Assembly (NCBI RefSeq): GCF_040219335.1 | Contig: NZ_JAVJSQ010000040.1 | Coordinates: 124,001 to 188,000 of the forward strand | From: Gimesia sp. | GTDB lineage: Bacteria; Planctomycetota; Planctomycetia; Planctomycetales; Planctomycetaceae | Reading direction: 5' to 3' | Length of the DNA: 64,000 nucleotides | In this document: in pieces, positions 6,230 through 35,787 of the stretch | Layout of the letters: each line of letters starts with the position of its first letter | Position numbering within the stretch: position 1 is the first letter of the stretch | The notes under the pieces: model-generated | What the model was told of the DNA's origin: nothing | Database searches by the model: none | Seen by the model: only the letters and a program-made list of their open reading frames with translations | Position numbers and translations under genes: made by a program

Positions 6230-6487
6230 TTAATGGTGGCGGCAGCAATTGGATCGTCCACAGCCGGGATCGGCCATGGGAAGTTGCGATTTTTTATTGC
6301 TGCTTTCCCCTTTGAAAAGCAATCCGCCTGAGATCAGACGTTCGACCGGAGCTGCCGCGGGAGTGCCGTTGAGGGGGACTCCTGCTTTCTCGCAGACTTC
6401 ACCCCAGGTTTTGAGCGATTCGCTCATGCGATGGCTGACTTCAACTGTTTCGTTGTTTGATTCACAAAAATATTCGTAGGTGATCAT
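6230..6487 (-). CDS. FmdB-like small protein with degenerate zinc ribbon
   Basis: An 85-aa protein beginning MITYEYFCESNNETVEV, like the FmdB regulatory-protein family, whose members start with a CxxC zinc ribbon. Here only the first Cys (C8) remains and the partner is replaced by Asn, so the usual zinc ribbon is incomplete. The C-terminus ends GCGRSNCCRHH, a Cys/His-rich tail that could bind metal instead. The ATG at 6487 is chosen because the domain starts there; an upstream frame extension to 6565 overlaps the permease gene and has no homology. It lies 28 bases after the ABC permease gene and 67 bases before fhcA. Confidence 0.75.
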   Translation of the reverse strand: MITYEYFCESNNETVEVSHRMSESLKTWGEVCEKAGVPLNGTPAAAPVERLISGGLLFKGESSNKKSQLPMADPGCGRSNCCRHH

Positions 6488-17867: not shown

Positions 17868-17929
17868 GGATAGCCTCAAGTGAGCGACTTTAAATCATGG
17901 TATGAATTTTGTTTATGAGTTCGATCTCA

Positions 17930-20434: not shown

Positions 20435-20552
20435 TGAGCACTTCTCTTCGTGTTATAATTAAAACAGTCGTGGTTTGATCAAAGTACGTAACGGCCGCGC
20501 AGCGACAAGGGCAGTCTGTTCCTCGTTAGGGTGAGGGACTCAACGTCTCTTT

Positions 20553-20580
20553 AGTCTCAGTTGAGGAGTCTCAGTTGAGG
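20553..20580. repeat. perfect 14-bp tandem duplication
   Basis: AGTCTCAGTTGAGG occurs twice back to back (20553-20566, 20567-20580) in the spacer between the DUF1501 gene and the PSCyt2 gene of the same run. CTCAAC at 20539-20544 could pair with GTTGAG at 20560-20565. Confidence 0.85.
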
Positions 20581-20599
20581 TTTGAACTGAGGTTACGCA

Positions 20600-21976
20600 T
20601 TAAAACAGTTCACGGATTTCCTGCTTACCCACATCCACCAGCGGGAAGGGGCGACCGGCGGGGCCGGGGAGCACCGTGTGTAGATCGAAGCCGAGGCTAT
20701 GGTAAACGGTTGCTGCCAGATCCCCGGGAGAAACCGGTCGATCTGCAGGCACACCACCAATCGGATCGCTGCTGCCGACCACGCGTCCACCCTGGACGCC
20801 TCCGCCGGCAAAGTAACAGGTAAAACATTGAGGCCAGTGGTCACGGCCTCCGGCTGGATTGACTTTCGGGGTGCGGCCAAATTCCGCCACATTGCAGACC
20901 AGGGTTTCGTCCAGCATGCCCCGGTCGTACAGATCTTCAATCAAGGCGCTGTAAGCCTGATCGTACATAGGGGCGACGATATTCTTCATACCCTCAATGG
21001 AGGTGAAAGGTTTCGAGCCGTGAATATCCCAGGTGATTTCGTTGAACACGGTCAGGAAGGTGTTGATCGTTACGAAACGCACGCCGGCTTCCACCAGACG
21101 GCGGGAGAGCAGACAGCATTGCCCGAAGCGGTTCATACCGTAACGTTCACGGACCTTCATGGGTTCTTTGGAGAGGTCAAAGGCTTCGCGGGCCTCTTTA
21201 CTGGTCATCAGGCGATAAGCCGAGTGAAAATTGCCGTTCAGCAGTTTGGCGTCCTCGGTCGATTCAAAATGATCGATGGTGCTGTCAACCACATCGCGGA
21301 TTTTACGACGCCGTTCCAGACGGGCCGAGCCGATCTCCTGGGGAGGCAGCATGTCGGGAACTTTAAAGTTCGGTTTGGAAGGATCGGCCATCAGGGCAAA
21401 AGGATCGTGAGCTTTACCCAGGAAGCCGCCCGCCTGACCATTAGGCAAGTTTCCACCGCCGCGTCCCATCGTTTCGGGGAGTACCACGTTGGCGGGCAGG
21501 TCGGTTTTGCGGCCTCGCAGATAATCGACCACGGAGCCGATGTGAGGAGTATTGATTCCACCCGTGAAGAGCCGACCGGTCTGCATCATCTGCCAGCCGG
21601 CATCGTGGACCGCTGCCGCGGTATGGTAACAGGAACGTACCAGCGAGAATTTATCGGCGACGCGTGCATGCAGCGGGAAAATTTCGGAAATATTGATATC
21701 GGGGGAGGCCGTATTAACGGGCTTGAAGGGACCCCGGATTTCGGATGGTGCCTCCGGCTTCATGTCGAAGGTGTCGAGCTGACTCGGGGCACCCAGATTG
21801 AAGATCATAATCGCCGCGCGGTTGTCGTTCTTCTTGTCGACCATCCCGCGTTCTTTAGCTTCGAGGTACTGTGGCAGTGAGAGCCCCATAGCGCCTAATG
21901 TGCCGACTTGCAGAAAGTCTCTGCGGGTGACTCCGCTGCAGGTATGCGCTGTGCCTTTGCCAGTGAACTTCAGCAT
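20600..21976 (-). CDS. DUF1501 Tat-exported protein
   Basis: A 458-aa protein with a Tat leader (TRRDFLQVGTLGAMGLS) and the DUF1501 fold, related to alkaline phosphatase/sulfatase-like proteins. Typical stretches are MIFNLGAPSQLDTFDMKP, PLHARVADKFSLVRS, and NVAEFGRTPKVNPAGGRDHWP near the C-terminus. The ATG at 21976 is taken; an in-frame TTG lies four codons upstream. It heads the run DUF1501, PSCyt2/PSD1, cytochrome-WD40. It is divergent from the PAS-AraC regulator, about 200 bases apart. Function in this family is unknown; export beside haem proteins suggests joint action outside the cytoplasm. Confidence 0.93.
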   Translation of the reverse strand: MLKFTGKGTAHTCSGVTRRDFLQVGTLGAMGLSLPQYLEAKERGMVDKKNDNRAAIMIFNLGAPSQLDTFDMKPEAPSEIRGPFKPVNTASPDINISEIFPLHARVADKFSLVRSCYHTAAAVHDAGWQMMQTGRLFTGGINTPHIGSVVDYLRGRKTDLPANVVLPETMGRGGGNLPNGQAGGFLGKAHDPFALMADPSKPNFKVPDMLPPQEIGSARLERRRKIRDVVDSTIDHFESTEDAKLLNGNFHSAYRLMTSKEAREAFDLSKEPMKVRERYGMNRFGQCCLLSRRLVEAGVRFVTINTFLTVFNEITWDIHGSKPFTSIEGMKNIVAPMYDQAYSALIEDLYDRGMLDETLVCNVAEFGRTPKVNPAGGRDHWPQCFTCYFAGGGVQGGRVVGSSDPIGGVPADRPVSPGDLAATVYHSLGFDLHTVLPGPAGRPFPLVDVGKQEIRELF

Positions 21977-22063
21977 GATGAACCTCAATGTGTGGAATAC
22001 GAATTAGGATCTGTCAGCGGCGGGATCCGGCTATAAATATCAGTCAGACGGAAACTGAACCAC

Positions 22064-22086
22064 TGCGCGAATTTCCTACTCGCGCA
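22064..22086. promoter_or_regulatory. inverted repeat in the DUF1501/araC divergent promoter region
   Basis: TGCGCGA (22064-22070) and TCGCGCA (22080-22086) form 7-bp arms with a 9-bp spacer, midway between the two divergent starts. It could be an operator for the adjacent regulator (inference). Confidence 0.4.
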
Positions 22087-22178
22087 AGAAAACCCTGATT
22101 CGTTTATTTTCGCATATCGTAGACGCTAAGATCAACATCGTCTTGTAGGAATGACGCATAAATTTGTATTATTTACGC

Positions 22179-22940
22179 ATGCAAGATCCTCAGAATTTCC
22201 GGGACGATTTCCTGAAACGCCTTGACAACAAACTCCATCTGGAAGAACTCTTCAACTACATTCCCGATGCTTATTTCTTTGCCAAGGACGCACAGGGACG
22301 TTTTATCAATATCAGTCGTGCCTGGATGGATGTGCGAGCGATTCCCCGCGAGGAAGACATCATCGGCAAGACCGATTTTGACATCCATCCCAAGGATCTC
22401 GCAGAACAATACGTGGCTGAAGATCAGCGGGTGATGGAATCTGGTACTCCACTTCCCAACCAGGTCTGGTTAATTCCCGATCGCCAGGGAAATCTGAAAT
22501 GGTATCTCTGCAGTAAGATTCCCCTGTTCGGCGATGGCGGCAAGGTGATCGGTGTGGCCGGCGTGTTACGTGACATCAAAGTTGCCGGCTCCGAATTTCA
22601 GTCTTACCAGGAACTCGACCAGGTGATCGCCTACGTCCTGGAACATTACCAGGAACGCATCCAGATTTCCGAACTGGCCGATCTGATCTTTCTTTCTGTC
22701 AGTCAGCTCGATCGGAAATTTAAAAAGCTGTATCAGATTACTCCTCAAAAATATATTCTGCGGGTCCGCATCAATGCCGCCTGTCAGCTGCTAACGAGAA
22801 CCGAAAAACGGGTGTCCGAAATCGCCCTCGAATCTGGTTTTTATGATCAGAGTTATTTTACCAAACAGTTTGTCAACCTGATGGGGCTCTCTCCTTCCGA
22901 GTACCGTAAACGTTTTCGGCAGGAGACGGAGATTGCCTGA
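22179..22940 (+). CDS. PAS domain AraC-family transcription regulator
   Basis: A 253-aa protein. A PAS/PAC sensor domain spans about 15-130 (note IPDAYFFAKDAQGRFINISRA and a C-terminal PAC-like IPLFGDGGKVIGVAGVLRDI). An AraC-type double helix-turn-helix covers about 148-250 (ISELADLIFLSVSQLDRKFK and VSEIALESGFYDQSYFTKQF). No strong ribosome site is seen; the ATG at 22179 is preferred over the TTG at 22164. It sits between two DUF1501/PSCyt modules, divergent from one and convergent with the other, which makes both plausible targets. The ligand or redox signal of the PAS domain is not apparent. Confidence 0.92.
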   Translation: MQDPQNFRDDFLKRLDNKLHLEELFNYIPDAYFFAKDAQGRFINISRAWMDVRAIPREEDIIGKTDFDIHPKDLAEQYVAEDQRVMESGTPLPNQVWLIPDRQGNLKWYLCSKIPLFGDGGKVIGVAGVLRDIKVAGSEFQSYQELDQVIAYVLEHYQERIQISELADLIFLSVSQLDRKFKKLYQITPQKYILRVRINAACQLLTRTEKRVSEIALESGFYDQSYFTKQFVNLMGLSPSEYRKRFRQETEIA

Positions 22941-22960
22941 TTCACATTGATCAGGCAATC
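22931..22960. terminator. palindrome shared by two convergent stop codons
   Basis: GATTGCCTGAT (22931-22941) and ATCAGGCAATC (22950-22960) pair perfectly over 11 bp with an 8-base loop. The stem contains both convergent stop codons, so each protein ends Ile-Ala. No T-tract follows on either side, so termination is a guess. Confidence 0.5.
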
Positions 22961-24438
22961 AGCTCATCAATCACGTGACCACCCACATCGGTCAGGCGGA
23001 ATCGGCGTCCGCTGTAGAGGTAGGTCAGCTTTTCATGATCCATTCCCAGCAGTCGTAAGATCGTGGCGTGTAGATCATTCACATGCACTTTGTTCTCCGC
23101 TGCTTTGAAGCCGATTTCATCGGTGGCTCCGTATGTCGTTCCCGCTTTAACGCCACCGCCGGCCAGCCAGGTGGTAAACGCGTGCGGATTATGATCGCGT
23201 CCTGGATTCGCCCCTTTTTGAGCGATCGGCAGGCGGCCGAATTCACCGCCCCAGATCACCAGCGTTTCATCGAGCAGGCCGCGGGCCTCCAGGTCTCCCA
23301 GGAGAGCGGCGATCGGCTGATCGGTTTCGCCGGCGAAGCCACTGTGATTTCCTTTGATGTCCTGGTGTCCGTCCCAGCTCCGCTGATTCTCCATCCCGCC
23401 GGAGTAGATCTGTACGAAGCGGGTTCCCCGTTCCACCATCCGCCGCGCGATCAGGCATTGTTTTGCGAAATGCTCACACTGCTTGTTGCCAATGCCGTAC
23501 TGATCCTGCAGGTGTTTCGGCTCCTTCGAAATGTCTAATGCTTCGGGAGCCGCACTCTGCATGCGATACGCGAGCTCAAAACTTTCGATGCGGGCCGCCA
23601 GTTCCTGGTCTCCTTCGTTCTGTTCCAGATGCTGTCGGTTGAGAGCTTTTACGAGATCAAGCTGCGAGCGCTGGCGTCCTTTGTTGGTTAATACTGACGG
23701 CGGTTGCAGGTTGTCGATGGGCTCACCGGTTGGTCTGAGATACGTTCCCTGGTAAACGCTGGGCAGAAACCCGGCGCCCCAGTTCAGGCTGTGTCCTTTG
23801 GGTAGACCGCGTCCCAGGGGATCGGACATCACCACGAAGGCCGGCAGGCTGTCGCTTTCGGAACCCAGTCCGTAAGTGACCCAGGAACCGACACAGGGAT
23901 GCCCCATTTTGGGGACGCCGCAATTCATCATGAACAGCGCGGGGCTGTGATTGTTTGATTCTGTATGCCCCGAGTGAATGAAGGCCATCTTATCGACGTG
24001 CTGGGAGAGTTGCGGGAAAATATCCGAGACCCATTTCCCTGATTCGCCATACTGTTTGAATTTGAAGGGGCTTTTCATCAGCGGTCCGACCGCGTTTTGA
24101 AAGAAGCCGGTCTTGTTGTCAAACCCTTCCAGAGCCACGCCATCCCGCTTTTCCAGTTCGGGTTTATAATCCCATGTATCAACCTGGCTCGGTCCACCAT
24201 TGATAAACAGCCAGATGACCGCTTTTGCTTTCGCGGGCATATGGGGTTCTTTCGGTGCCAGCGGATTGTTGGGGCGCACAGCCGGAGCGGCCTGGCTGGT
24301 TTCCAGGAGTCCCTCCTGTTGCAGCAGGCTGAGCAGGCCCAGCGTACCGATGCCGCTGCCGGCTCGTTTGAGCAGCTGTCGGCGGGCCATTAATTGATTG
24401 AGTGAAATGGTCGGCAGTTCTGTGATAGGTTGTGACAT
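22951..24438 (-). CDS. DUF1501 Tat-exported protein (second copy)
   Basis: A 495-aa DUF1501 protein with a Tat-like leader (MARRQLLKRAGSGIGTLGLLSLL). Family stretches include AVIWLFINGGPSQVDTWDYKP, AFIHSGHTESNNHSPALFMMN, and ETLVIWGGEFGRLPIAQKGANPGRDHNP. The ATG at 24438 has GGAG about 8 bases upstream; an upstream GTG frame extension is not supported. It follows the PSCyt1/PSCyt2/PSD1 gene by 63 bases and ends tail to tail with the AraC regulator. The two DUF1501 proteins of this window belong to visibly different subgroups, since the second is longer and carries SHTESNNHSP. Confidence 0.93.
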   Translation of the reverse strand: MSQPITELPTISLNQLMARRQLLKRAGSGIGTLGLLSLLQQEGLLETSQAAPAVRPNNPLAPKEPHMPAKAKAVIWLFINGGPSQVDTWDYKPELEKRDGVALEGFDNKTGFFQNAVGPLMKSPFKFKQYGESGKWVSDIFPQLSQHVDKMAFIHSGHTESNNHSPALFMMNCGVPKMGHPCVGSWVTYGLGSESDSLPAFVVMSDPLGRGLPKGHSLNWGAGFLPSVYQGTYLRPTGEPIDNLQPPSVLTNKGRQRSQLDLVKALNRQHLEQNEGDQELAARIESFELAYRMQSAAPEALDISKEPKHLQDQYGIGNKQCEHFAKQCLIARRMVERGTRFVQIYSGGMENQRSWDGHQDIKGNHSGFAGETDQPIAALLGDLEARGLLDETLVIWGGEFGRLPIAQKGANPGRDHNPHAFTTWLAGGGVKAGTTYGATDEIGFKAAENKVHVNDLHATILRLLGMDHEKLTYLYSGRRFRLTDVGGHVIDELIA

Positions 24439-24501
24439 CCTGTTTCTCCGTATTATTCGATTGAACTGTGTATTAAAAACTGGTCTCACAGAAAGTCGCG
24501 A

Positions 24502-27500
24502 TTAGTTGGGATAGATGAATTCATTGGTACTGAGCAACGCATGCGTGAAGTCGGTTAACGCCAGCAGTCGCGGTTCCGCCTTCTTCTCCGCGGTATAGGA
24601 CTGCTCATGCTGTTTGATAAATTCGACTGAGATCGCCGTTTCACTGGCGGTCGGCTGACGTCCCAATGCGATCTGATAGGCATCCGCGACTGCCCGCTCC
24701 AGCGAGTCTGGCTGCTGCTGGATACGCTTGGCGAAGGACTTCGCACTCTCGCGGATAAAGTCGGCATTCATGAACAACAGGGCCTGCGGGGCGATAGTGG
24801 TGCTCGAGCGTTGACCGATGCTGACCAGTGCTTCCGGGGCATCGAAGAGCTGCATCATTGGAATCAGCTGACTCCGTTTGATTTTGAAATAGATACTGCG
24901 ACGCTGGTTGTCGGTCTTCAGCGAACCGGGACCGTACATGGTTGTATCCAGCCGATCGCCGACATACAGAATCGAATCACGAATGGCTTCCCCTTCCAGA
25001 CGCTGAGGTGTACGACGCCAGTGCAGCTTGTTTTCGGGATCTATCTTTGCTTTGTCTGCAGCGAAGTCGGTTGACTGTCGATACGTAGCGCTGAGCATGA
25101 TCTCTTTGTGCAGCGGCTTGAGGTGCCACTGGTGTTTGATGAGCTGGTTCGCCAGGAAGTCGAGCAACTCTGGATGTGTGGGGCGTTCCCCCTGCAGACC
25201 GAAGTCGTTCGGCGTGCTGACGATGCCGGCTCCCATGTGATGCTGCCAGAGTCGGTTCACCAACACCCGGGCCAGCAGGGCACCGGCACCCTGATTGGTA
25301 TCGGTCATCCAGTTGGCCAGTGAAGTGCGTCGATACGAGGTGGTCGCTGACTGCGGAGGTTCTTCAATCCACTTCTGTTCCTGCCCGGGGTTTCTCATCA
25401 GTACCTGCAGGAAACCCTGTTCGGCGACTTTCCCCTTTTGATCGGTATCACCCCGCGTCAGGTAGTATGTGACGTCGAAGAAGTCTTTCCCCTGACTGTG
25501 GTGCCGGACCGGTTTGATTTCGGGGCCTTCACTGCAGATCATGACTTTCGTCAACGCGGGCTGAGGTTCTGTTTTCAGATGCTGTTCGACCTTGCCGGAC
25601 AACGCAACCCACTCGGAATCCTGTTCGCGATAGTATCGCTTGAGAATCTGTTTCAGTCCTGCATTCAGCTTCTTCAGGTCTCCCTGCGCTACAAACTGCA
25701 GGGCCTGGGCCAGCTGTTCAGGGCTGCCAGTTCCTGTTTTGACAGGGGGGGCACTCGCGCTGCTGACCGAAAACCGCGGGTGTCCAATGCTATGATTCAC
25801 ATTGTTGGTGAATGACATGGTGATTGTTAGCTCGGTTTCGCCTGTGAACTCCAGCGGCTCTTTCAGATCGAAAACAATCGCCTGGTCCTTGCCGATTCCA
25901 CCCAGGTCAACCGCCCAGCCGGATCCGTATTGCCCATCGATGGCGCTGGCTGCAGAGAGAGTGGTCTGGTTCTGCTCGTGCGTCGCACGGGCGTTGGTCA
26001 GCTTCAGGTCCTGGCTCTTCGCCTCTTTCTCATTCAGTGATTTGGCTTTGACCTTAAATGCGGTTAGCGAAAAGTTGCCGTTCACCGCGCGACCGGGGCC
26101 CTGGTGGGGCAGGCTGCGATGTGTCAATGTTTCCAGGCGAATGGAACGCAGGGGACTCACGCTGGTTTTCAGGCGGAATGTGTAGTGATCCTGGTTGATA
26201 TTCGGGCCACTGACCAGGATCGAGCCATCTTCTAGTTTTTCAAAGCGGGCTTTCCCCTTGGATGAATGACTGGAGACTTCGGGAACAATCCACTGATCCA
26301 GCTGACTGCGGTCGACTTTACCCTGCGTGAGCCACTGTTTGAACTGCGGGTTGAGCTGATTCGCTTCATAGTCGCGCAACGCTTTGACCAGTGGCGCGTG
26401 TGCCTGGTCAAAGGCGGCTTTCTCTCGCTGATATTTTTCGGGATCGAGATCGATTTCAATCTCGGTGCGGACGGTCGTGGTGAATGTCGAGAGCATCCGG
26501 TAGTAATCGCGGGTGGGGATGGGGTCAAACTTATGATCGTGGCAGCGGGCACAGCCGACGCTCAGTCCCAGCATGGCCAGACCGGTGGTGTTGAGCATGT
26601 CATCCAATGCGTCATAGCGGGTGCGTTCTACTTCATTGGCCGTGATCTGGGTTGGAAAAACACCTGCGCCCAGAAAGCCCGTCGCCATCAGTGCCAGTGG
26701 ATTTTCAGGAGCGATTTCATCCCCCGCCAACTGCCAGCGGACAAATTGATCGTAAGGCATGTCCTGGTTGAGGGCCTTGATGACAAAATCGCGATAGTGA
26801 TAGGCATAGTTGCGGTCGTAGTCGTGTTCGAAGCCGTGGCTCTCTGCGAAACGGGCGATGTCGAGCCAGTGCCGTGCCCAACGCTCTCCATAGCGGGGGC
26901 TGTCGAGCAGCCGATCGATCAGTTTTTCATAGGCGTCGGGACTCTGGTCTGCCAGGAATTCTTCGATTTCCGCGGGTGTGGGGGGCAGGCCGATCAGGTC
27001 GAAATAAGCGCGGCGGATATAGGTGCGTTTACTGACCTCTGCGTTGGGGGTTAAACCTTTGGGTTGCTGGGCAGCGATGATAAACTGATCGATCTCATTG
27101 CGGGCCCGGTCGTTAGATTTCACCGTCGGGACGGCAGGTTGACTCAGCGGCTGAAACGACCAGAACTTTCGATCTTCGTCTGTTACTGCGAGTGGGCCGG
27201 CTTCTGCTTTGTTGCCGGTGGCCAGCGGTTTGTCGTAGGGAGCGCCCAGATCGATCCATTTCGAGAGGCTGGCAATCTCTTTGTCGTTGAGCTTCTCCTC
27301 CTTGAGCGGCATGTAGGGCTCTTCGCGGTGTTCGACCAGAGCCATCAGGTAGCTCTCTTTGCCGGTCTTTTCAATCATACCGCTGTCGAGCAGCTTCTTA
27401 CGGGTGGAGAGGTCAAAGTCTCCTTTGACAGACTGGCCCCCATGACATTTCAGACATTTCGCAGCCAGCAGGGGGCGGATTTCTTTCTTGAACACCTCCA

Positions 27501-27621
27501 GTCCCTGCTGCATTCGTTTCGCGTGGTCAGCCGGGAGCACTGGTTTCTTTTCCGCGGCGGTCAGTACGCTGCTGGACAGGCTGGCGATTAACAACATGAG
27601 CGCGATGGTAAAAATTCGCAT
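24502..27621 (-). CDS. PSCyt1/PSCyt2/PSD1 multidomain cytochrome protein
   Basis: A 1039-aa exported protein. A signal peptide (FTIALMLLIASLSSSVLTAA) precedes the PSCyt1 cytochrome domain with C56-x-x-C59-H60 in AKCLKCHGG and YMPLKEEKL as the distal ligand region. DUF1549 (PSCyt2, about 175-380) has IRRAYFDLIGLPPTPAEI and GCARCHDHKFDPIP. A beta-sandwich carbohydrate-binding-like insert covers about 450-640. DUF1553 (PSD1, about 770-1000) has RVLVNRLWQHHMGAGIVSTPNDFG. The ATG at 27621 directly follows an in-frame TTG. Encoded 93 bases after the FecR-LamG gene, it probably belongs to the regulon of the ECF sigma factor upstream (inference). Confidence 0.93.
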   Translation of the reverse strand: MRIFTIALMLLIASLSSSVLTAAEKKPVLPADHAKRMQQGLEVFKKEIRPLLAAKCLKCHGGQSVKGDFDLSTRKKLLDSGMIEKTGKESYLMALVEHREEPYMPLKEEKLNDKEIASLSKWIDLGAPYDKPLATGNKAEAGPLAVTDEDRKFWSFQPLSQPAVPTVKSNDRARNEIDQFIIAAQQPKGLTPNAEVSKRTYIRRAYFDLIGLPPTPAEIEEFLADQSPDAYEKLIDRLLDSPRYGERWARHWLDIARFAESHGFEHDYDRNYAYHYRDFVIKALNQDMPYDQFVRWQLAGDEIAPENPLALMATGFLGAGVFPTQITANEVERTRYDALDDMLNTTGLAMLGLSVGCARCHDHKFDPIPTRDYYRMLSTFTTTVRTEIEIDLDPEKYQREKAAFDQAHAPLVKALRDYEANQLNPQFKQWLTQGKVDRSQLDQWIVPEVSSHSSKGKARFEKLEDGSILVSGPNINQDHYTFRLKTSVSPLRSIRLETLTHRSLPHQGPGRAVNGNFSLTAFKVKAKSLNEKEAKSQDLKLTNARATHEQNQTTLSAASAIDGQYGSGWAVDLGGIGKDQAIVFDLKEPLEFTGETELTITMSFTNNVNHSIGHPRFSVSSASAPPVKTGTGSPEQLAQALQFVAQGDLKKLNAGLKQILKRYYREQDSEWVALSGKVEQHLKTEPQPALTKVMICSEGPEIKPVRHHSQGKDFFDVTYYLTRGDTDQKGKVAEQGFLQVLMRNPGQEQKWIEEPPQSATTSYRRTSLANWMTDTNQGAGALLARVLVNRLWQHHMGAGIVSTPNDFGLQGERPTHPELLDFLANQLIKHQWHLKPLHKEIMLSATYRQSTDFAADKAKIDPENKLHWRRTPQRLEGEAIRDSILYVGDRLDTTMYGPGSLKTDNQRRSIYFKIKRSQLIPMMQLFDAPEALVSIGQRSSTTIAPQALLFMNADFIRESAKSFAKRIQQQPDSLERAVADAYQIALGRQPTASETAISVEFIKQHEQSYTAEKKAEPRLLALTDFTHALLSTNEFIYPN

Positions 27622-27714
27622 CAATGCCTCTTCGTCTGGAAGTTTCAGCGGGAATGAAGTTCTGGTATGTCAGGTCTCTTTAGCTATATCACAATAGTGG
27701 AGCCGGGAAATCAA

Positions 27715-29373
27715 TTAAGAACCTGGTTTTCCGGCCTGGTACAGTCTGGAAATCTCATCTGCGGAAAGTGCCCGACCAAACAGGGCAAACTCATCCAGGC
27801 GGCCATTCAGACTGCGGATGCTGTGTGCGCCCGAGTGATTCTGGGGACGCCAGTTTCCGATTTCCGCAGGGCCAATGATCAACGGGACCGGCTTTTCGAT
27901 TTTATGATGACTGACGGGAACGCCGTCCAGGTAATGTACGACTTCGCGTTTCTGATGATCGTAAACTGTGACCAGGAAAATCCAGCGGCCCAGGTCGGTA
28001 GGCTGCAGGACGACGGGGGAGAAAAAGTTCTTCACCTCGCCGGTATTCACGCCGAGAATGATCTCCCCTTTGTCACTTAACTGCCAGTGGGGATTACCGG
28101 GTTGGAAGCCATCGGTCAGCATCAGAGAGCTCAACCAGCGGTCGAAGCCTTCGATACGAACCCAGGCCATAAATGTGAGGGACTGGTATTCCCCCGGAAT
28201 CTGCAGCCGTACACGGTCACTGGTTCGTTTGAATTCGAGTCCCTGTTTATCGGGCCAGCGACCTGAAGTCCACTGGCAGCCGACAATCGCGCCATCCGTC
28301 GCAGAGGACAATGGCTGTCGGGCTTTGTTCTTCAGTGTCCGGACCCAGTTTGATGGCTCTTCAAAGTCATAATAGGCGAGCAGGCTCGGATCTGTCTTGA
28401 GGCGCTGGTTCTGCTCACGCCAGTGTGATAACTGTTGCTCTTGCTGACGGGCCGCGAGTTGAGAAAGTTCTTCCAGGTCGATCAGCGGTCGGATCGCTTC
28501 CTGTAACTCGTTCAGAGTTCCCTGGGCATCGAAATTGACTCCTTCTCCGGTAGTCAGGCTCTGCAGCGGTGGAGCACTTTGCTGCTGGTTGGCAGCGTGC
28601 AGTTCGACCTTGCCATCAATGACCTGCACCTGTCCGTTCCCGGTTTCATCCAGGGAGAGGGTAAATTCCGTACCCAGATCAACCACATTCAGTCGGGAGG
28701 TGGCGACGGAAAATCCCTGAGCCTGCTCCGGAACAGAGGCTCGCACCTTTCCGTATTCACAGAATGCTTTAAGGGGTGAGATCAGCTTGATCGCTGCGGG
28801 ACCTTCGATGAGCACCGAGGCGCCGCTGATCATCTCGACCTGAATCGTACCGCTTTTCAGTTTCAACCAGCCGGCCGACAGACCGGCACCGGCCTGGAGA
28901 TCGCGGGGTGTTTCCCACTCAACGCCCACGGCCTGGGTGAGCAGAGCGATGTGATCGGTTTGCGGTTCACTGGCGGCGGGAGAGTTCTCAGAGGATTTCG
29001 TTTCCGGAATATTAACGATTTGTGACTCTTGTCCGGATCCAATGCTCCAGCCAGCGTAATAGGAGAGCGACAGCAGGAGGGTTGCTGCGACGACAGAGGA
29101 AATTAGCAAGAGGACAAACCGAGAGGCATTCCACTGGGAGTCCGTTCGCGTCTCAACATGCTGTGGAACCCACGGATCGGCGTCTCGTGTCTCGGCGGTC
29201 CAACTGGCCAGACCGGAGTGCACTTGCAGATAGTCAATGTAGACCTGACGCTGGTCGGCGTCCTTTTTGAGAATTTGCTCCAGCTCCATCTGTTCAGATT
29301 CGCTGATGGTTTCCTGGAGCAGGGCATCGATCAGCTGAACGGTTCGATTGTCGGAAGAAGGGGGTGAATTCAT
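27715..29373 (-). CDS. membrane FecR-like protein with C-terminal LamG domain
   Basis: A 552-aa protein with a cytoplasmic N-terminal helical part (about 1-80), one membrane helix near 85-111 (FVLLLISSVVAATLLLSLS) and a FecR domain near 140-290. FecR signatures are GWLKLKSGTIQVEMISGASVLIEGPA and VVDLGTEFTLSLDE. After a coiled Gln-rich linker (LAARQQEQQLSHW), a LamG/concanavalin-like domain spans about 345-545. The ATG overlaps the sigma-factor stop codon (ATGA), so the two are translationally coupled. By analogy with FecR it should carry an outside signal to the sigma factor, with LamG as the possible ligand sensor. Confidence 0.9.
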   Translation of the reverse strand: MNSPPSSDNRTVQLIDALLQETISESEQMELEQILKKDADQRQVYIDYLQVHSGLASWTAETRDADPWVPQHVETRTDSQWNASRFVLLLISSVVAATLLLSLSYYAGWSIGSGQESQIVNIPETKSSENSPAASEPQTDHIALLTQAVGVEWETPRDLQAGAGLSAGWLKLKSGTIQVEMISGASVLIEGPAAIKLISPLKAFCEYGKVRASVPEQAQGFSVATSRLNVVDLGTEFTLSLDETGNGQVQVIDGKVELHAANQQQSAPPLQSLTTGEGVNFDAQGTLNELQEAIRPLIDLEELSQLAARQQEQQLSHWREQNQRLKTDPSLLAYYDFEEPSNWVRTLKNKARQPLSSATDGAIVGCQWTSGRWPDKQGLEFKRTSDRVRLQIPGEYQSLTFMAWVRIEGFDRWLSSLMLTDGFQPGNPHWQLSDKGEIILGVNTGEVKNFFSPVVLQPTDLGRWIFLVTVYDHQKREVVHYLDGVPVSHHKIEKPVPLIIGPAEIGNWRPQNHSGAHSIRSLNGRLDEFALFGRALSADEISRLYQAGKPGS

Positions 29374-29939
29374 GAGCCTGCCTCCGTGGATGGTAGTGAC
29401 TGCTGCATGCAGTCCATGAGTTTCAGACGCAGACGGGCGAGCTTTTTGTAGATCGCATCTCGGGAGCGGCCCAGCTGATCAGCGACTTCCTGAATCGTCT
29501 GTGGGCCATGGTAACAGTCGAGAATCAGTTTTCGGTTCTCATTGTCCAGTTTCTGAATGCAGTCCTGCAGAGCCTGTTTCCGCTGTTCTGACTCCGGCAG
29601 TGACTTATTCTGCTGGGCTGCGATCAGCGAGAGGACTTCATCGGAGAAATAATGACGGTCCCGGCTCTGAACCCGTTGGAAGTTCTTCACCTCATAGAAA
29701 GCGATCCCGCAGGCCCAGGCAGCAAAACTCTGAGAGGTATCGAAGGTCTGGCATTTACGCCACAGGACCAGGCAGGTCTGTTGGAAAACATCTTCCGCGT
29801 CGGTCTGGTGCGGCAGCAGCGTACCGATAAAGCCCCGGATCAGGCTGTGATGCCGGGCCAGCTGAGAGACGAAATGCTCATCGGGCAGGGCGCCTGCCGT
29901 CATTTCAGGCTTTTCGGTTGTATCTCGGTTTGAGTCCAT
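29370..29939 (-). CDS. ECF sigma-70 factor, planctomycete type
   Basis: A 189-aa ECF sigma factor. Region 2 is visible near 25-90 (QLARHHSLIRGFIGTLLPHQTDAEDVFQQTCLVLWRK; FAAWACGIAFYEVKNFQ) and region 4 near 125-180 (QTIQEVADQLGRSRDAIYKKLARLRLKLMDCM, a helix-turn-helix). The ATG at 29939 replaces a TTG six codons upstream. It overlaps the FecR-LamG gene by 4 bases and heads the run that continues through the PSCyt1 and DUF1501 genes. No classical zinc anti-sigma gene is seen, so the FecR-like protein probably controls it. Confidence 0.93.
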   Translation of the reverse strand: MDSNRDTTEKPEMTAGALPDEHFVSQLARHHSLIRGFIGTLLPHQTDAEDVFQQTCLVLWRKCQTFDTSQSFAAWACGIAFYEVKNFQRVQSRDRHYFSDEVLSLIAAQQNKSLPESEQRKQALQDCIQKLDNENRKLILDCYHGPQTIQEVADQLGRSRDAIYKKLARLRLKLMDCMQQSLPSTEAGS

Positions 29940-30399
29940 ACTGATAATCGTACACAAGCTCGGAGATTGGACGGTCTAAAAAGGGATTTTTTCCCGACGG
30001 GAACGGATTCAACGTCTCTGCTGTTGTATAAGTCCCTTTTTTATATTGCTTTATAAGAATCTTGATTATATCAGTCCTTTCTGCGTTATACAGAAGAATT
30101 GATTCTTCCGGCGACAGAATGACTGACAGACAGTTGTTCAACAGTTGCGACCTTTGAGGCTGTGCTTCTTTGCGGTGGTTCGATTTAATACAAACGATTC
30201 TTTAGACGCGGAACGTTTTCAGAACTGTCCCGCATTCTAGATCGAATCACAAATCTCGCTGGTCGCGCCACTTGCGAGTTTACGGTAGAACGGGTACTCT
30301 CCTTGAGTTATCATTTAACATTTCACCCTGCGCGGCGGTCTCTGCCGGGCAGCCTGTAATCTTCGTGACAACATACATCGATCAGAGTGGTATCAATTA
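29940..30399. other. divergent intergenic region
   Basis: 460 bases between the sigma-factor gene (minus) and the ketosynthase gene (plus). A 78-codon minus-strand frame overlaps the sigma gene and has a low-complexity look, so I do not call it. No ribosome site is obvious before the ketosynthase ATG. AAAAAGGGATTTTTTCCCG near 29978-29996 could fold weakly. Nothing else stands out. Confidence 0.4.
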
Positions 30400-31638
30400 A
30401 TGGATGATCAAAGCCGGATTGTCATTACCGGAATTGGCCTGACAGCTCCAAATGGCAATAACCTGGAGGAATTTCGGCAAAGTCTGCTGGCAGGACGTTC
30501 GGGTGTTGTAGATTACGACATTCGTTACATGGGGCATGTCCTCGCGGGTGTCTGTGATTTCGATGAACTGCGTTATCAGAAACGTAAAGAAGTCCGCCGG
30601 GGTACACGTGCGGGCTCCATCGCTGTCTACTGTGCGAACGAAGCCGTCAATCAGTCCGGCCTCGACTGGGAAAATGTCGCCCGCGACCGCGTCGGCGTTT
30701 ATCTGGGCATTACAGAGCACGGCAACGTCGAGACCGAGAACGAAGTCTACGAGATTTCGCAGTTCGACTACGATACAAAAGTCTGGTCGCACCACCACAA
30801 TCCCCGTACCGTGGCGAATAACCCGGCTGGGGAAGTCACGTTGAATCTGGGTATCACCGGTCCGCACCTCACACTCGGTGCTGCCTGTGCTGCCGGGAAT
30901 GCTGGATTTATTCAGGGCGTGCAGATGCTGCGGCTGAATGAAGTCGATATGGCCCTGTGTGGTGGTGTTTCTGAGAGTATTCACACGTTTGGAATCTTCG
31001 CCAGCTTCCAGAGCCAGGGCGCTCTGGCCGTCAATGAAGATCCGACCAAAGCCTGTCGTCCCTTCGACGTGAACCGGAACGGGATCGTCGTCGCCGAAGG
31101 GGGCGCGGTCTGCACTTTGGAACGTCTTCCCGACGCATTGGCACGTGGAGCCACCATTTACGGTGAAATCGTCGGCTACGCCATGAATTCCGATGCCAGC
31201 GATTTCGTGCTCCCCAACTCCTCGCGTCAGGCAGAATGTATTCGGCTGGCCCTCGATCGGGCGGGGCTGGAACCTTCCGATATTGATATCCTGAGCAGTC
31301 ATGCCACCGCCACCCACCAGGGAGATATTGAGGAAGCCAAGGCACTCGCTTCCGTGTTTGGGGATTGCCCCAATCTGGCGATTAACAACACCAAGAGCTT
31401 TATCGGCCATGCGATGGGCGCTGCGGGGGCTCTCGAACTGCTGGGGAATCTGCCCGCCTTTGATGATGGTATCGCGCATGCGACTTTGAATCTGGATGAC
31501 CTTGATCCGGAGTGTAAACTCTCACAGATCGTAGCCAATGAGCCACGACAGATGGAACAGGTTGAGTGCATTCTGAATAACTCCTTCGGGATGCTGGGAA
31601 TCAATTCGGTTCTGATTGTGAAAAAGTACGCTACCTGA
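30400..31638 (+). CDS. beta-ketoacyl-ACP synthase (FabF-like), first gene of an acyl/desaturase cluster
   Basis: A 412-aa thiolase-fold condensing enzyme that extends an ACP-bound acyl chain with a malonyl unit. The catalytic triad is present: C163 in GAACAAGN, H301 in SSHATATHQGD, and H337 in KSFIGHAMGAAGA. The usual NTHGTST stretch is replaced by SSHATAT and the C-terminal block is FGMLGINSVLIVKK, so it is a diverged FabF-type enzyme rather than the housekeeping copy. It lies 321 bases upstream of an ACP gene and in line with two CrtI-like flavoproteins and a FabZ-like dehydratase, which suggests a specialised lipid or polyketide-like pathway. Confidence 0.93.
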   Translation: MDDQSRIVITGIGLTAPNGNNLEEFRQSLLAGRSGVVDYDIRYMGHVLAGVCDFDELRYQKRKEVRRGTRAGSIAVYCANEAVNQSGLDWENVARDRVGVYLGITEHGNVETENEVYEISQFDYDTKVWSHHHNPRTVANNPAGEVTLNLGITGPHLTLGAACAAGNAGFIQGVQMLRLNEVDMALCGGVSESIHTFGIFASFQSQGALAVNEDPTKACRPFDVNRNGIVVAEGGAVCTLERLPDALARGATIYGEIVGYAMNSDASDFVLPNSSRQAECIRLALDRAGLEPSDIDILSSHATATHQGDIEEAKALASVFGDCPNLAINNTKSFIGHAMGAAGALELLGNLPAFDDGIAHATLNLDDLDPECKLSQIVANEPRQMEQVECILNNSFGMLGINSVLIVKKYAT

Positions 31639-31959
31639 ACTGAACGGTAGACATACCCCGCTTTTCCACTCTGCGCAGTCTGATTCTCTGCCTAAACTGA
31701 GCTTCCTTTCGTAATTAAGCCGCTCCTGTGCAGATTTTCTGAAAAACTCTGTGTTCTTATGACCTGAGTCGGTTTAAATCTCGGTTTCAATCAAGTTATA
31801 GTATTTTCCCCGAGGGGCGGGTTTTTGTTTCCCGGCTTCTAGCGGGGAGGGTGTTGGTTTGCTATAAGTGGCTTCCCCTCTCAGGGTTTCGCGGCGGATC
31901 TGTACATATCGCCGCTGGAAATCGACGTTACAGGATTTTAGAAAGTTTGGAGTTTCTGC
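31639..31959. other. intergenic region between ketosynthase and ACP genes
   Basis: 321 bases without a credible gene. A short GC-rich hairpin (CCCCGAGGGG) followed by CGGGTTTTTG near 31809-31828 may be a weak terminator or pause. A good Shine-Dalgarno, GGAG at 31949-31952, serves the ACP gene. A separate promoter for ACP is therefore possible. Confidence 0.35.
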
Positions 31960-32223
31960 ATGGCGCCGGAACAAATCAGATCGGTTATCTTGGATATCTT
32001 GGCTCGAATTGCTCCCGATGAAGATCTTTCGGAACTAGATGATAGCGTTCCTTTTCGGGATCAGATGGAACTGGACAGCATGGACTTTCTGGATATCGTC
32101 ATGGAGCTGCGAAAGCTCTATCGCGTGCAGATTCCGGAAGAAGACTACGGCGAACTGGTAACCATGGACAGCACCGTGACCTACCTGACTCCCCTCCTGA
32201 AGGATGCTGAAAGCACCGTCTGA
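31960..32223 (+). CDS. acyl carrier protein
   Basis: An 87-aa acidic protein with the four-helix ACP pattern. The phosphopantetheine attachment Ser is S40 in ELDSMDFLD (canonical DSL is here DSM). It carries growing acyl chains as thioesters. The ATG at 31960 has GGAG 7 bases upstream. Only 21 bases separate it from the first CrtI-like gene, so the two are almost certainly cotranscribed. It is not the housekeeping AcpP, which would carry DSLD and sit beside fabG/fabF; it is likely dedicated to this cluster. Confidence 0.93.
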   Translation: MAPEQIRSVILDILARIAPDEDLSELDDSVPFRDQMELDSMDFLDIVMELRKLYRVQIPEEDYGELVTMDSTVTYLTPLLKDAESTV

Positions 32224-32244
32224 TTCTCCAACCTTCCCGACGCC

Positions 32245-33630
32245 ATGACCTACGATTCGATTATTATTGGTGCCGGCCTTTCCGGGCTGGCTGCAGGAAT
32301 CCGACTGGCGTACTATGGGAAGCAGGTGTGCATTCTCGAACGGCACACCACCATTGGCGGATTGAACTCCTTCTATCGCCTGCGCGGTCGCAATCATGAT
32401 GTCGGTCTGCACGCCGTCACCAACTATTCGCCCCCAGGCGGAAAACGGGGCCCGCTGAATAAGATTCTCAGGCAACTCCGTTTTCAGTGGGATGACTTCG
32501 ACCTCAGCCCCCAGTGTGGCTCTTCGGTCGTTTTTCCCGGGCATACTCTGCGATTTAATAATCAGTTTGATTATTTCGAAGCCCAGATCGCCGAACAGTT
32601 CCCCAATCAGATCGACGGCTTCCGGCGACTCGTCGCGGATATTGACTCTCACAACATCGGCGATCTCGGACAGACCTGGATCTCGGCCCGCAAACGCATG
32701 GCCGAACAGATTTCCGATCCGCTGCTGATCAACATGCTGCTCTGCCCGCTGATGTTTTACGGCAGTCCCTCGGAGCACGATATGGACTTCAACCAGTTCG
32801 TGATCATGTTCCGCAGCATCTATCAGGAAGGCTTTGCCCGCCCCTACAAAGGCGTGCGGCTGATCCTTAAAAACCTGGTCCGCAAATTCAAAGAGCTCGG
32901 CGGTGAACTCAAGCTGCGTGCCGGCGTTCAGCAACTGCTCACCGACGGTCAGCATGTGAACGGCGTCATGCTCGATGACGGGCAGATCCTCCAGGCTAAA
33001 AACGTGCTTTCCTCGGCTGGATCCGCGGAAACACTCAAGCTCTGTGGAGCTGACGTCACTGCAGATGAACGTTTTACGCCGGGGGAAATATCGTTTGTCG
33101 AAACGATCTCCGTGCTCGATCAACAGCCTGCGGAATTCGGACACGAGGAGACGATTGTCTTCTACAATGAATCGGAAGACTTCTACTACGAGCAGTCCAA
33201 AGAACCCGTCGACGTTCGTAGCGGCATCATCTGCTCGCCTAATAATTTCGAGTACGATCAGCCACTTGAAGAGGGCTCGATCCGCATTACGGCTCTCGCG
33301 AATCCCGATTACTGGATGAATCTCCCTGAGGATAAGTACGTCGCCGAGAAGAAATACTGGTACGATCAGATTCTCGAGTCCTCGATGCGTTACATCCCCG
33401 ACTTCCGACCGCATGTTATCGATGTGGACACGTTCACACCCCGCACCATTAAGAAGTTTACCGGGCACATCAACGGCTGTGTGTACGGGGCGCCACAGAA
33501 AATCCTGGATGGTACCACCCCCTTCGATAACCTCTTTCTGTGTGGCACCGATCAGGGCTTCCTCGGCATCATCGGTTCGATGCTCTCCGGGATCAGCATT
33601 GCTAACCTGCACCTGCTGAACGCGAAGTGA
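32245..33630 (+). CDS. CrtI/phytoene-desaturase-like FAD oxidoreductase, first of two
   Basis: A 461-aa FAD protein with the N-terminal dinucleotide-binding motif G9-A-G-L-S-G14, then ILERHTTIGGLNSFYRLRG, and the C-terminal FAD-contact block NLFLCGTDQGFLGIIGSMLSG. This layout is that of phytoene desaturases, carotenoid isomerases and related retinol saturases. The substrate is probably an acyl chain rather than a carotenoid because no phytoene synthase is nearby and an ACP gene lies 21 bases upstream (inference). Length is somewhat shorter than CrtI (about 500). Possible reactions are desaturation, saturation or cis-trans isomerisation. Confidence 0.9.
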   Translation: MTYDSIIIGAGLSGLAAGIRLAYYGKQVCILERHTTIGGLNSFYRLRGRNHDVGLHAVTNYSPPGGKRGPLNKILRQLRFQWDDFDLSPQCGSSVVFPGHTLRFNNQFDYFEAQIAEQFPNQIDGFRRLVADIDSHNIGDLGQTWISARKRMAEQISDPLLINMLLCPLMFYGSPSEHDMDFNQFVIMFRSIYQEGFARPYKGVRLILKNLVRKFKELGGELKLRAGVQQLLTDGQHVNGVMLDDGQILQAKNVLSSAGSAETLKLCGADVTADERFTPGEISFVETISVLDQQPAEFGHEETIVFYNESEDFYYEQSKEPVDVRSGIICSPNNFEYDQPLEEGSIRITALANPDYWMNLPEDKYVAEKKYWYDQILESSMRYIPDFRPHVIDVDTFTPRTIKKFTGHINGCVYGAPQKILDGTTPFDNLFLCGTDQGFLGIIGSMLSGISIANLHLLNAK

Positions 33631-33713
33631 GCCGATTCCCGGTTTTCTGACATGCTGTACCTCTGCTTCACTGTGCGATAAATCCGCTATTTCTATAACT
33701 CTACGCCTGCGAA

Positions 33714-33757
33714 TTGTCACACTTTTGTCACAGTATTCTCTTTTACTCTGGTATAGT
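33714..33757 (+). promoter_or_regulatory. direct repeats and -10-like box upstream of the second desaturase gene
   Basis: TTGTCACA occurs at 33714-33721 and 33725-33732, 11 bp apart, so both face the same side of the helix. TATAGT at 33752-33757 resembles a -10 box, but the spacing to the nearest TTGTCA is 21 bases, too long for a standard promoter. The repeats may instead be an activator site. Confidence 0.4.
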
Positions 33758-33794
33758 AGACAAAGCCCCTGATTTTCGATAAACAGGAGAAGCA

Positions 33795-33856
33795 ATGTTG
33801 TCATCTTACGCCCGGGCATGAGTCCCTTCATGGTCCCGTTTTTTCTTCTCTGCTGA
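33795..33856 (+). other. two overlapping minigenes, candidate leader peptides
   Basis: AGGAG (33785-33789) precedes ATG at 33795 by 5 bases, which opens MLSSYARA and a stop at 33819-33821. That stop overlaps a second ATG (33818) encoding MSPFMVPFFLLC, ending at 33856, 23 bases before the next gene. Such coupling suggests a translated leader; it could also be chance. Confidence 0.3.
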
Positions 33857-33879
33857 TTTAAATACGACGCTGAATTATT

Positions 33880-35307
33880 ATGGCCAAAGACTTTTTGAAA
33901 GACGCAAAAGACGAATACGATGTCATCGTCATCGGTAGTGGTCTGGCAGGCATGACCTCCGCCAATATTCTGGCCCGGCAGGGGTACTCCGTGCTGCTGC
34001 TGGAACATCATTACCAGCTGGGAGGCATGGCCACCTGGTTCAAACGGCAGAACGGGCACATCTTTGATATCTCTCTCCACGGCTTCCCCTACGGCATGCT
34101 CAAGAGCTGTCGGAAATACTGGACCCAGGAGATCGCAGATAACATCGTCCCCCTGCGAGGCGTCCGCTTTGAAAATCCGCAGTTCTCGCTGGAGACCACC
34201 TTCACTCGTGATGACTTCACCCGCCTGCTGATCGAAAAATTCGGCATCGAATCCGAAACCGTCAAGAACTTCTTTGACACTGCCCGCAAGATGAACTTCT
34301 TCGATGATCAGGGCAAAACAACCCGCGAACTGTTCGAAGAGTTCTTCCCCGGCCGCGATGATGTCGTCCGCCTGCTCATGGAACCGATCTCCTACGCCAA
34401 CGGTTCGACTCTCGAAGATCCCGCGATCACCTACGGCATCGTTTTCTCGAACTTCATGCAGAAGGGCGTCTACACCTTCCGCGGCGGTACCGATCACCTG
34501 GTCAAGCTCATCAAGGCCGAAATGGAACGCAACGGTGTCGATGTCCGTATCCGCACACAGGTCGAGAAGATCGAAGTCACCCCCGACCGTCGTGTGACCG
34601 GCGTCGTGGTCAACGGACGTCGCATCGGCTGTAAGGCCATCATGTCCAACTCGAATATCAAAGGCACCATCCTCAACCTCGTGGGCGAAGAACATTTCGA
34701 TCCCGAGTACGTCGAGGAAACCAAAGCCGTCCGCCTCAACAACAGCAGTACCCAGGTCTATATCGCTCTCAAGCCGGGCGACGAACTTGATTTCTGTGGC
34801 GACCTGCTCTTCCATTCCGAGCACAAAGGCTTCGACATCAAAGCCATGCTCAGTAAGGAGGTCAGTAGCCGCACCTTCTCGTTCTACTATCCCGAGACCC
34901 GGCCTGGCAGCGAACGCTCCCTGATCGTCTCGTCGACCAACGCGAATTTCAGCGACTGGGCTAATCTTCCCGACGACCAGTACGAAGCCGATAAGAATCA
35001 TCTCATCGAGACGACCCTCGACTGCCTCGAACAGTACGTTCCCAACATCCGCGAACGTGTGGACCATCTCGAAGCTTCCACCCCGCGGACCTTCCAACGC
35101 TACACACAGCACCTGCAGGGAGCCTCGTTCGGAACCAAGTTCGAAGGTCTCAAGGTCAGTAAGGAACTGCCCGAACAAATCGAAGGCCTGTACCATGCCG
35201 GCTCGGTCGGAATCATCATGTCGGGCTGGCTCGGCGCTGTGAACTACGGCGTGATCGTCAGTAACGACGTCGATAAATACCTGACACCCGCTGCCGCCAG
35301 CATCTGA
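33880..35307 (+). CDS. CrtI/phytoene-desaturase-like FAD oxidoreductase, second of two
   Basis: A 475-aa FAD protein with G19-S-G-L-A-G24, [19 protein letters not shown] and a C-terminal [22 protein letters not shown] block. It is related to, but clearly distinct from, the preceding CrtI-like enzyme: the C-terminal FAD block has [10 protein letters not shown] where the other has GTDQGFLGIIG. Codons end in C or G more often than in neighbouring genes, a visible difference in base use. It is 249 bases downstream with its own possible control region and 54 bases upstream of the FabZ-like gene. It likely acts on the same ACP-bound or free lipid chain (inference). Confidence 0.9.
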
Positions 35308-35361
35308 ACCGCCGCCCCTGTTCGCACAGACCCGCTCACACAATAGAAACGGATTGATCTC

Positions 35362-35787
35362 GTGAATCTGGATGAAATCAAAGCCTGTATTCCGCACCGG
35401 GAACCTTTTCTGTGGCTCGATGAAGTCGTCGCGCTGGAAGAAAACAGCATCCACGCCCGCAAGTTCGTCTCACCCGACCTGGACCTTTTTCAGGGACACT
35501 ATCCCGATCACCCGGTTCTGCCTGGCGTGATTCTCTGTGAGGCCGCGATGCAGGCTGCCGCTGTCTTCATCGCGAAGACAGATGCCCCGTCCAGCGACAA
35601 AGTACCCGTTGCTACCCGGCTGAACAACACCAAGTTCCGCCGGATGGTCAAGCCGGGGGAGACGATTGATATCCAGGTGACTCTCAGTGAAAAAATGGGC
35701 GGTGCCTGGTTCTTTACCGGCAAGCTCTCGGTCGGCAAAGAGACCGCTGTCCGTCTCGAATTCGCTGTGACCGCAGCCGAGGCTTAA
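35362..35787 (+). CDS. FabZ/FabA-like 3-hydroxyacyl-ACP dehydratase
   Basis: A 141-aa hot-dog-fold protein. The catalytic His is H46 in FQGHYPDHPVLPGVILCEA, with E60 as the acidic partner. IPHREPFLWLDEV near residue 10 is typical of FabZ. It removes water from 3-hydroxyacyl-ACP to give enoyl-ACP. The start is the GTG at 35362, which fits the family N-terminus (MNLDEIKACIPHREPF). It is the last gene of the cluster, 54 bases after the second CrtI-like gene and tail to tail with the PQQ-propeller gene. No ketoreductase or enoyl reductase gene is in the cluster, so those steps would use shared FabG/FabI. Confidence 0.93.
   Translation: MNLDEIKACIPHREPFLWLDEVVALEENSIHARKFVSPDLDLFQGHYPDHPVLPGVILCEAAMQAAAVFIAKTDAPSSDKVPVATRLNNTKFRRMVKPGETIDIQVTLSEKMGGAWFFTGKLSVGKETAVRLEFAVTAAEA

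Follow-up and report, generated by a model that had tools for sequence, protein, structure and literature searches.

A gene cluster of Gimesia sp. with two CrtI-like flavoproteins as a putative dissociated counterpart of the Pfa synthase

The window analysed here is a 64,000-nucleotide stretch of a Gimesia sp. genome (G000, 7.9 Mb; positions 124001-188000 of contig C40). It carries, at window positions 30400-35787, five plus-strand genes for a stand-alone ketosynthase (KS), an acyl carrier protein (ACP), two different flavoproteins with the CrtI-superfamily fold (designated A and B) and a FabZ-like dehydratase. Judging from the comparison of genome sequences, this cluster is likely to form the central part of a polyunsaturated-chain synthase of the dissociated (type II) kind, which feeds OleA in place of the giant Pfa synthase. 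In the genomes compared, its gene content and order are conserved, it co-occurs with genes of the Ole pathway, it and PfaD are mutually exclusive, and the type of OleA segregates with it. An earlier note on this DNA, made from the window alone, had described the five genes and proposed a ladderane-like or polyene lipid pathway; the observation was confirmed, the ladderane reading failed, and the idea of a lipid pathway stands, now more narrowly defined.

The known bacterial routes to polyunsaturated chains are oxygen-using desaturases and the Pfa megasynthase. If our reading is true, the cluster would be an unrecognised microbial way to make such chains for long hydrocarbons, built as a dismantled Pfa-like enzyme. 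It would explain polyunsaturated hydrocarbons in organisms without Pfa, attribute a function to both of these large and so far unassigned flavoprotein families and, through small separate enzymes, open a compact route for engineering. It would also agree with a report on an Arctic lake (PMC10176705), where oleC was found in Planctomycetes, Nitrospina, Verrucomicrobia and Deltaproteobacteria, these being groups where the cluster occurs. In the literature that we covered, from which most subscription papers fall outside, the cluster is not described as a supplier of polyunsaturated chains or of the Ole pathway, and the nearest paper is that of Rattray et al. (2009, PMC2649909).

Conservation of the cluster, Ole genes and exchange with Pfa

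The cluster is no chance assembly of the window: in the window's family (f1), a close orthologue of A (E under 1e-40) is present in 53 of its 61 genomes. Among 294 genomes drawn across the phylum, counted with no account of kinship, A was found in 66, B in 66, both in 65 and either in 67. Gene order was read as the order of recognised genes on one strand, between which others may intervene, and some of the stretches stop at contig ends. In the 35 A-bearing planctomycete stretches that were fetched (29 outside family f1 and six inside it, the window excluded), the row KS-ACP-A was seen in 25, A-B in 22 and the complete five-gene order, whether FabG stands ahead of FabZ or not, in 17. Within family f1 the pieces are often apart, KS-ACP-A being found in four of the six stretches, A-B in three and all five in one. 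The order KS-ACP-A-B-FabZ is met again in other planctomycete families and in other phyla. A scan of named genomes with an alignment of B gave 572 confirmed stretches, the best 80 of which were used; their record titles name Desulfobulbaceae, Desulfocapsa, Desulforhopalus, Desulfopila, Opitutaceae, other Verrucomicrobia, Bacteriovoracaceae, Nitrospinae, Chloroflexi and planctomycetes. Within these 80, KS-ACP-A-B was present in 51, the five-gene order (with or without FabG) in 47 and B-FabG-FabZ in 59. The loci read include those of the culturable Desulforhopalus vacuolatus DSM 9700 (L275), Desulfogranum japonicum DSM 18378 (L319) and Geminisphaera colitermitum TAV2 (L322), the last showing B alone in its stretch.

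Outside family f1, the cluster often lies near genes for a FabI-like reductase, FabG, OleA, OleB, OleC and OleD. Some Ole gene was present in the fetched stretch at 17 of the 29 A-loci outside the family, with all four of OleABCD at eight; the corresponding figures for the best 80 named loci are 41 and 11. At L256, L258, L260, L307 and L310, among others, the genes form a one-strand row KS-ACP-A-B-FabG-FabZ-FabI-OleABCD. Across the phylum, OleC (NF006754) was matched in 112 of the 294 genomes at E 1e-100 (107 above the curated cut-off) and in 65 of the 67 genomes with A or B (64 above the cut-off). The window's own genome has an OleA-like gene on contig C7 (A/B-type, 378.5 bits; 401.7 bits with PRK09258, 3-oxoacyl-ACP synthase III, cut-off 285), and OleC and OleD together on contig C4. 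The proteins that we take to be OleA and OleB were so named from their likeness to known families and from their position. One OleC passed PRK09274 (611.9 bits, cut-off 478) and failed the olefin beta-lactone synthetase model (545.5, cut-off 900), and one OleD scored 348 bits with the OleD model, below the cut-off of 580.

Pfa synthases combine KS, acyltransferase, ACPs, ketoreductase (KR), dehydratase (DH), a pair of KS and chain length factor (CLF) with two dehydratase/isomerase domains, and enoyl reductase (ER) (PMC13291983). Their marker PfaD (TIGR02814) was found in 43 of the 294 phylum genomes, 42 of which have OleC (41 over the cut-off), and in none of the 67 genomes with A or B. A test within the family, set in advance after the exclusion had been seen in the phylum, covered 50 further genomes and found PfaD in none of the 44 A-positive and four of the six A-negative ones. 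With the addition of 11 family genomes already counted in the phylum set, the figures become 0 of 53 and six of eight. The window's own genome gave no PfaD at E 1e-60 and no ketosynthase of polyketide synthase (PKS) size, its KS frames being only 364-468 aa long. In A-negative genomes with OleC, a KS-bearing open reading frame (ORF) of 2,046-2,369 aa flanks the ole genes in eight of 14 stretches.

The type of OleA follows the same division. In a tree, OleA of the genomes with A or B (36 rows, other phyla included) and OleA of the Pfa genomes (seven rows) form two clades with a Shimodaira-Hasegawa-like approximate likelihood ratio test (SH-aLRT) value of 100. Two PfaD-bearing members of the window's family, G025 and G033, have OleA of the Pfa type (tree of 27 rows), and a ketosynthase ORF of 2,274 aa adjoins OleA of G033. 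Since this is so in family f1, synthase and OleA appear to change together even where they are unlinked. Taken from the genome comparisons, this replacement pattern provides strong comparative evidence for the role proposed.

The cluster resembles the Pfa-OleABCD system (Shewanella type, C31:9) in its KS/KR/DH/ER logic, its own ACP and an output that would be passed to OleA, and it fills the same place in genomes and phylogeny. It differs in consisting of separate small proteins instead of megasynthases and has no visible acyltransferase or chain length factor. The cluster itself holds one 87-aa ACP and one FabZ-like hotdog protein, with no tandem ACPs and no dehydratase/isomerase domains; two flavoproteins stand where Pfa has its two dehydratase/isomerase domains (PMC13291983).

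Several observations weigh against this reading. Counts of A/B and PfaD ignore kinship, and f1 and f48 are the sole families in which both states are found. PfaD is only a proxy for Pfa, as its model also matches in B. subtilis. Five of the 112 OleC genomes have neither A/B nor PfaD (G134, G142, G159, G168 and G197; OleC of G142, G159 and G168 is below the cut-off), and the A-negative family members G012 and G014 also lack PfaD; a B-like protein of G014 reaches only 91 bits, i.e., it is no B orthologue. Six of the 14 A-negative stretches, several of them cut by contig ends, show no large KS ORF beside ole. Conversely, G291 and G325 have A or B and no OleC, their completeness being 80 and 86%. 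A was recognised in 62 of the best 80 named loci, and the other 18 show B without A beside it. OleA and OleC are so named by similarity: the models that they pass bear the titles 3-oxoacyl-ACP synthase III and fatty acid CoA ligase. In family f1 the cluster was beside ole in none of the six stretches. In the window's own genome no OleB came to light within some 10 kb of either OleA or OleC, no genome-wide search for it having been made, so the end product in this family could be a beta-lactone or a ketone. To our knowledge, there is no known product for any organism seen here to carry the cluster.

Proposed pathway and the desaturase alternative

In the pathway that we propose, KS would elongate the ACP-bound chain, FabG and FabZ would produce the 2-enoyl thioester, the FabI-like reductase would take out the double bond in some rounds, and A and B would handle the double bonds in the remaining ones. 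The acyltransferase step may be performed by the housekeeping FabD. OleA would then join two C16 chains head to head, and OleD, OleC and OleB would process the product to a C31 polyene. The cluster stretches fetched from the window's family contain neither FabG nor the FabI-like gene, hence general FabG and FabI would serve there.

The polyunsaturated product may be a 16:4 (4,7,10,13) chain leading to C31:9. In bacteria with Pfa, the chain that OleA condenses is predicted to be 16:4n-3, and a 31:8 ketone is reported for Pfa combined with OleA (PMC6463001). If 4,7,10,13-16:4 is assembled two carbons at a time from a C2 starter, the bond would have to shift from position 2 to position 3 at the C6 and C12 stages, stay at position 2 (in cis form) at the C8 and C14 stages, and be fully reduced at C4, C10 and C16. 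Two such chains joined head to head would have bonds at 3,6,9,12,15,19,22,25,28, which corresponds to hentriacontanonaene, a published compound. By this arithmetic two distinct isomerising acts would be needed, and two flavoproteins are present beside one FabZ. The CrtI fold includes the carotenoid isomerase CrtISO. We infer that A and B are probably enoyl-ACP isomerases and possibly desaturases.

The main rival to the isomerase assignment places A and B in the same pathway as true flavin adenine dinucleotide (FAD)-dependent desaturases of saturated or monounsaturated acyl-ACP, with KS and FabZ merely elongating the chain; we regard it as rather unlikely, though it deserves to be weighed seriously. 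Isoprenoid desaturation is known chemistry of the CrtI fold, which the structural models predict for both proteins. The alternative follows the model of Rattray et al. (2009) for related genes, and the isotope data of these authors, read as desaturation of monounsaturated chains (PMC2649909), speak for it and count against isomerisation. It leaves unexplained, however, why A and B so frequently keep company with KS, ACP, FabG and FabZ in the best named loci. Neither does it account for the exchange with Pfa, which sets its bonds during extension by means of dehydratase/isomerase domains (PMC13291983).

The isomerase reading can be connected with a known hydrocarbon. Desulfotalea psychrophila contains C31:8 and C31:9 hydrocarbons amounting to 5% of its lipids; no ladderanes were detected in it, it was reported to lack a PUFA-type (polyunsaturated fatty acid) polyketide synthase, and it holds three CrtI-like genes, DP1860, DP2405 and DP2406 (PMC2649909). 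Rattray et al. proposed a novel anaerobic PUFA pathway common to D. psychrophila and anammox bacteria (PMC2649909). We keep their idea of a pathway of the type II fatty acid synthesis (FASII) kind, but place it in a module for which none of the 17 presumed anammox genomes has orthologues. The cluster is found in records titled Desulfobulbaceae, Desulfocapsa, Desulforhopalus and Desulfopila, which we count in favour of the proposal beside the C31:9 of D. psychrophila, and we predict that DP2405 and DP2406 are A and B. Against it stands the fact that D. psychrophila is not among the best 80 of the 572 loci. The C31 hydrocarbons of the planctomycetes Schlesneria and Singulisphaera, cited in the same paper (PMC2649909), were set aside and not used as support, since these may be Pfa organisms.

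In its widest form, which we offer tentatively and hold with less than even confidence, the proposal is that the cluster represents a third, oxygen-independent PUFA route: a type II synthase in which A and B would be the enoyl-ACP isomerases for the 2E-to-3Z and 2E-to-2Z conversions. This route would extend over Planctomycetota, Desulfobulbaceae with related groups, Verrucomicrobia, Nitrospinae, Bacteriovoracaceae and Chloroflexi, would be exchanged with Pfa as one unit that includes OleA, and would be the source of the Desulfotalea C31:9. The actinobacterial type II PKS for cinnamoyl lipids also unites dissociated KS, ACP and DH with a phytoene-dehydrogenase-like (CrtI-like) flavoprotein.

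Membrane-lipid, carotenoid and ladderane alternatives

A different role, in which the acyl chain made by the cluster, polyunsaturated or special in some other way, goes chiefly into membrane lipids and the link to Ole is of second rank, seems unlikely to us. It can draw on the two incomplete genomes with A or B and no OleC, and on the absence of linkage between the cluster and ole in the window's family. It is opposed by the presence of OleC in all the other genomes with A or B and by the OleA type, which tracks the synthase. The term polyene lipid used in the earlier note comes close to our own reading of the cluster as a supplier of Ole; the explanatory context, i.e., oleABCD and the exclusion of Pfa, is not visible from the window.

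Desaturation or isomerisation of a C30 or C40 carotenoid by A and B is very improbable. In its favour are the CrtI fold and the remote profile matches, and the window's own genome does have phytoene/squalene-synthase family genes on another contig, namely HpnC (over its cut-off) and an HpnD-like gene (236.7 bits, cut-off 278.6), while a search of this genome with B gave no further full-length CrtI-like protein. However, the profile scores are far below the cut-offs: the best NCBIfam match of A is carot_isom (76 bits against 586.9), that of B is desat_CrtD (117 bits against 549.7), and both proteins stay below the curated cut-offs of the CrtI, CrtD and CrtISO models. A tree of 87 proteins puts A and B each into a separate clade (30 and 35 rows, respectively, both with SH-aLRT 100); the seven carotenoid references lie on one side of a branch (97), and eight anammox flavoproteins are separate (99, 100). 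This tree was made by a quick method and has long branches and no CrtISO reference among the 87, and the record of its Staphylococcus reference reads NAD(P)/FAD-dependent oxidoreductase, the CrtN/P label being ours. A and B also travel with KS, ACP and FabZ, and often with ole, across several phyla.

AlphaFold2 models of good quality with the CrtI fold were obtained for A and B (mean predicted local distance difference test values, pLDDT, 90.6 and 86.4), and the best solved match of both is the gamma-carotenoid desaturase 4rep, with 18% identity for A and 17% for B. A and B share with CrtI, CrtISO and CrtD the fold and the FAD-binding N-terminus, but they have only 15-19% identity with 4rep, 4dgk and 5mog, carotenoid desaturases of solved structure, fall into separate clades and keep other gene company. 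A carotenoid role was rejected by profiles, tree and gene company. The earlier note was right that the flavoproteins most likely work on acyl chains: in the tree check that it had itself proposed, they lie outside the seven carotenoid references. A side observation concerns a Pseudalkalibacillus plasmid (L360, positions 1-6446), which encodes, side by side, an ACP, a FabZ-like protein, an enoyl-CoA hydratase/isomerase and a flavoprotein that shares 24% identity with B.

The ladderane-like pathway, with which the earlier note had linked the cluster, is the least credible of the alternatives and hardly tenable: anammox clusters do hold a similar mix of family names (PMC2649909), but the 17 genomes taken as anammox contain no orthologue of A or B (no match at E 1e-40), their flavoproteins and ketosynthases fall into separate clades, they have no OleC match in the search of the 294 genomes, and they pair KS with a KS devoid of the active cysteine. 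These 17 genomes make up families f44 and f75, whose anammox nature was deduced from ORF size and consistency; the marker HZS_alpha was matched in 57 of the 294 genomes, 40 of them outside f44 and f75. The CrtI-like proteins of anammox bacteria are 26-29% identical to B in their full-length best matches, and 16 anammox ketosynthases, eight of them without the active cysteine, are separate from the clade of cluster KSs. Neither the flavoproteins nor the ketosynthases of the cluster are orthologous to those of the anammox genomes; the ladderane reading was rejected by orthology and trees, and the cluster type comes off the list of ladderane candidates.

The Kuenenia FASII clusters with kuste3336 and kuste3607 are alike in that KS, FabZ and a CrtI-like protein lie close together in anammox genomes. 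They differ in having radical S-adenosylmethionine (SAM) genes (PMC2649909); none was found among the 10 window proteins checked, those of the cluster and beside it, as the earlier note had stated for the cluster. They are also not orthologous, carry a KS with a cysteine-less KS and have no OleC match, with anammox genomes standing in for the kuste proteins in this comparison. Javidpour et al. (2016, PMC4790861) saw no lycopene from kuste3336 and kuste3607 in E. coli. Nine stretches taken as anammox (L214, L215, L216, L218, L220 and L222-L225) have FabZ, KS, a second KS and a CrtI-like protein in succession, and in the seven of them placed in the tree the second KS has V or E instead of the active cysteine. 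This KS and its cysteine-less partner form a KS-CLF-like pair, perhaps the core of a ladderane synthase.

The locus and its surroundings

All five ORFs are intact on the plus strand, and the coordinates, families (Pfam search) and order given for them in the earlier note proved accurate. The FabF-like KS (30400..31638; ketoacyl-synt, 133 bits) has C163, H301, K332 and H337; the cysteine and both histidines do not vary in an alignment of 18 cluster KSs and occur throughout a larger set of 30. The dedicated ACP of 87 aa (31960..32223; PP-binding, 30.6 bits) has S40 within a DSM motif, counted by eye. Flavoprotein A (32245..33630), the proposed FAD acyl-ACP double-bond isomerase and possibly a desaturase, is followed by B (33880..35307), the proposed second isomerase, again possibly a desaturase; both match Amino_oxidase/NAD_binding_8. 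The last gene (35362..35787, GTG start) encodes the FabZ-like 3-hydroxyacyl-ACP dehydratase (FabA-like hotdog, 74.9 bits), whose H46 and E60 are invariant across 12 aligned sequences. The catalytic residues named in the earlier note are hence correct. The genes are spaced by 321, 21, 249 and 54 bases, so a single operon is no more than a possibility.

By curated cut-offs, none of KS, A, B and FabZ reaches a named equivalog: KS has 315 bits with TIGR03150 fabF (cut-off 493.75), and FabZ has 110.8 bits with PRK00006, just below the cut-off of 113. The window KS and 29 other cluster KSs form a single clade (SH-aLRT 100) apart from five paralogues of the own genome. Two of these five paralogues, G000:C29:536294-539260 (L345) and one on contig C19 (L348), have no active cysteine, with E and D instead. 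All members of a group of five ketosynthase paralogues are essential in Planctopirus limnophila (PMC10632474), which we did not use as support. The stieleriacine cluster of Stieleria was considered and discarded, as its genes (methyltransferase, dehydratase, oxidoreductase and fatty acid desaturase; PMC7293339) do not match.

An antisense ORF of 1139 aa (window 32035-35454, minus strand) spans A and B, and similar shadow ORFs lie opposite A in relatives; we saw no sign that it is a gene. Divergent from the cluster, at 27715-29957 on the minus strand, are a gene for an extracytoplasmic function (ECF) sigma factor of the Rhodopirellula/Verrucomicrobium type (157.9 bits, cut-off 124.55) and, following it, one for a protein that has a LamG domain and matches FecR below the cut-off. 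The same strand carries, at 14976-27624, large genes of the DUF1549/DUF1553 and DUF1501 kinds together with one for a WD40/planctomycete cytochrome c protein.

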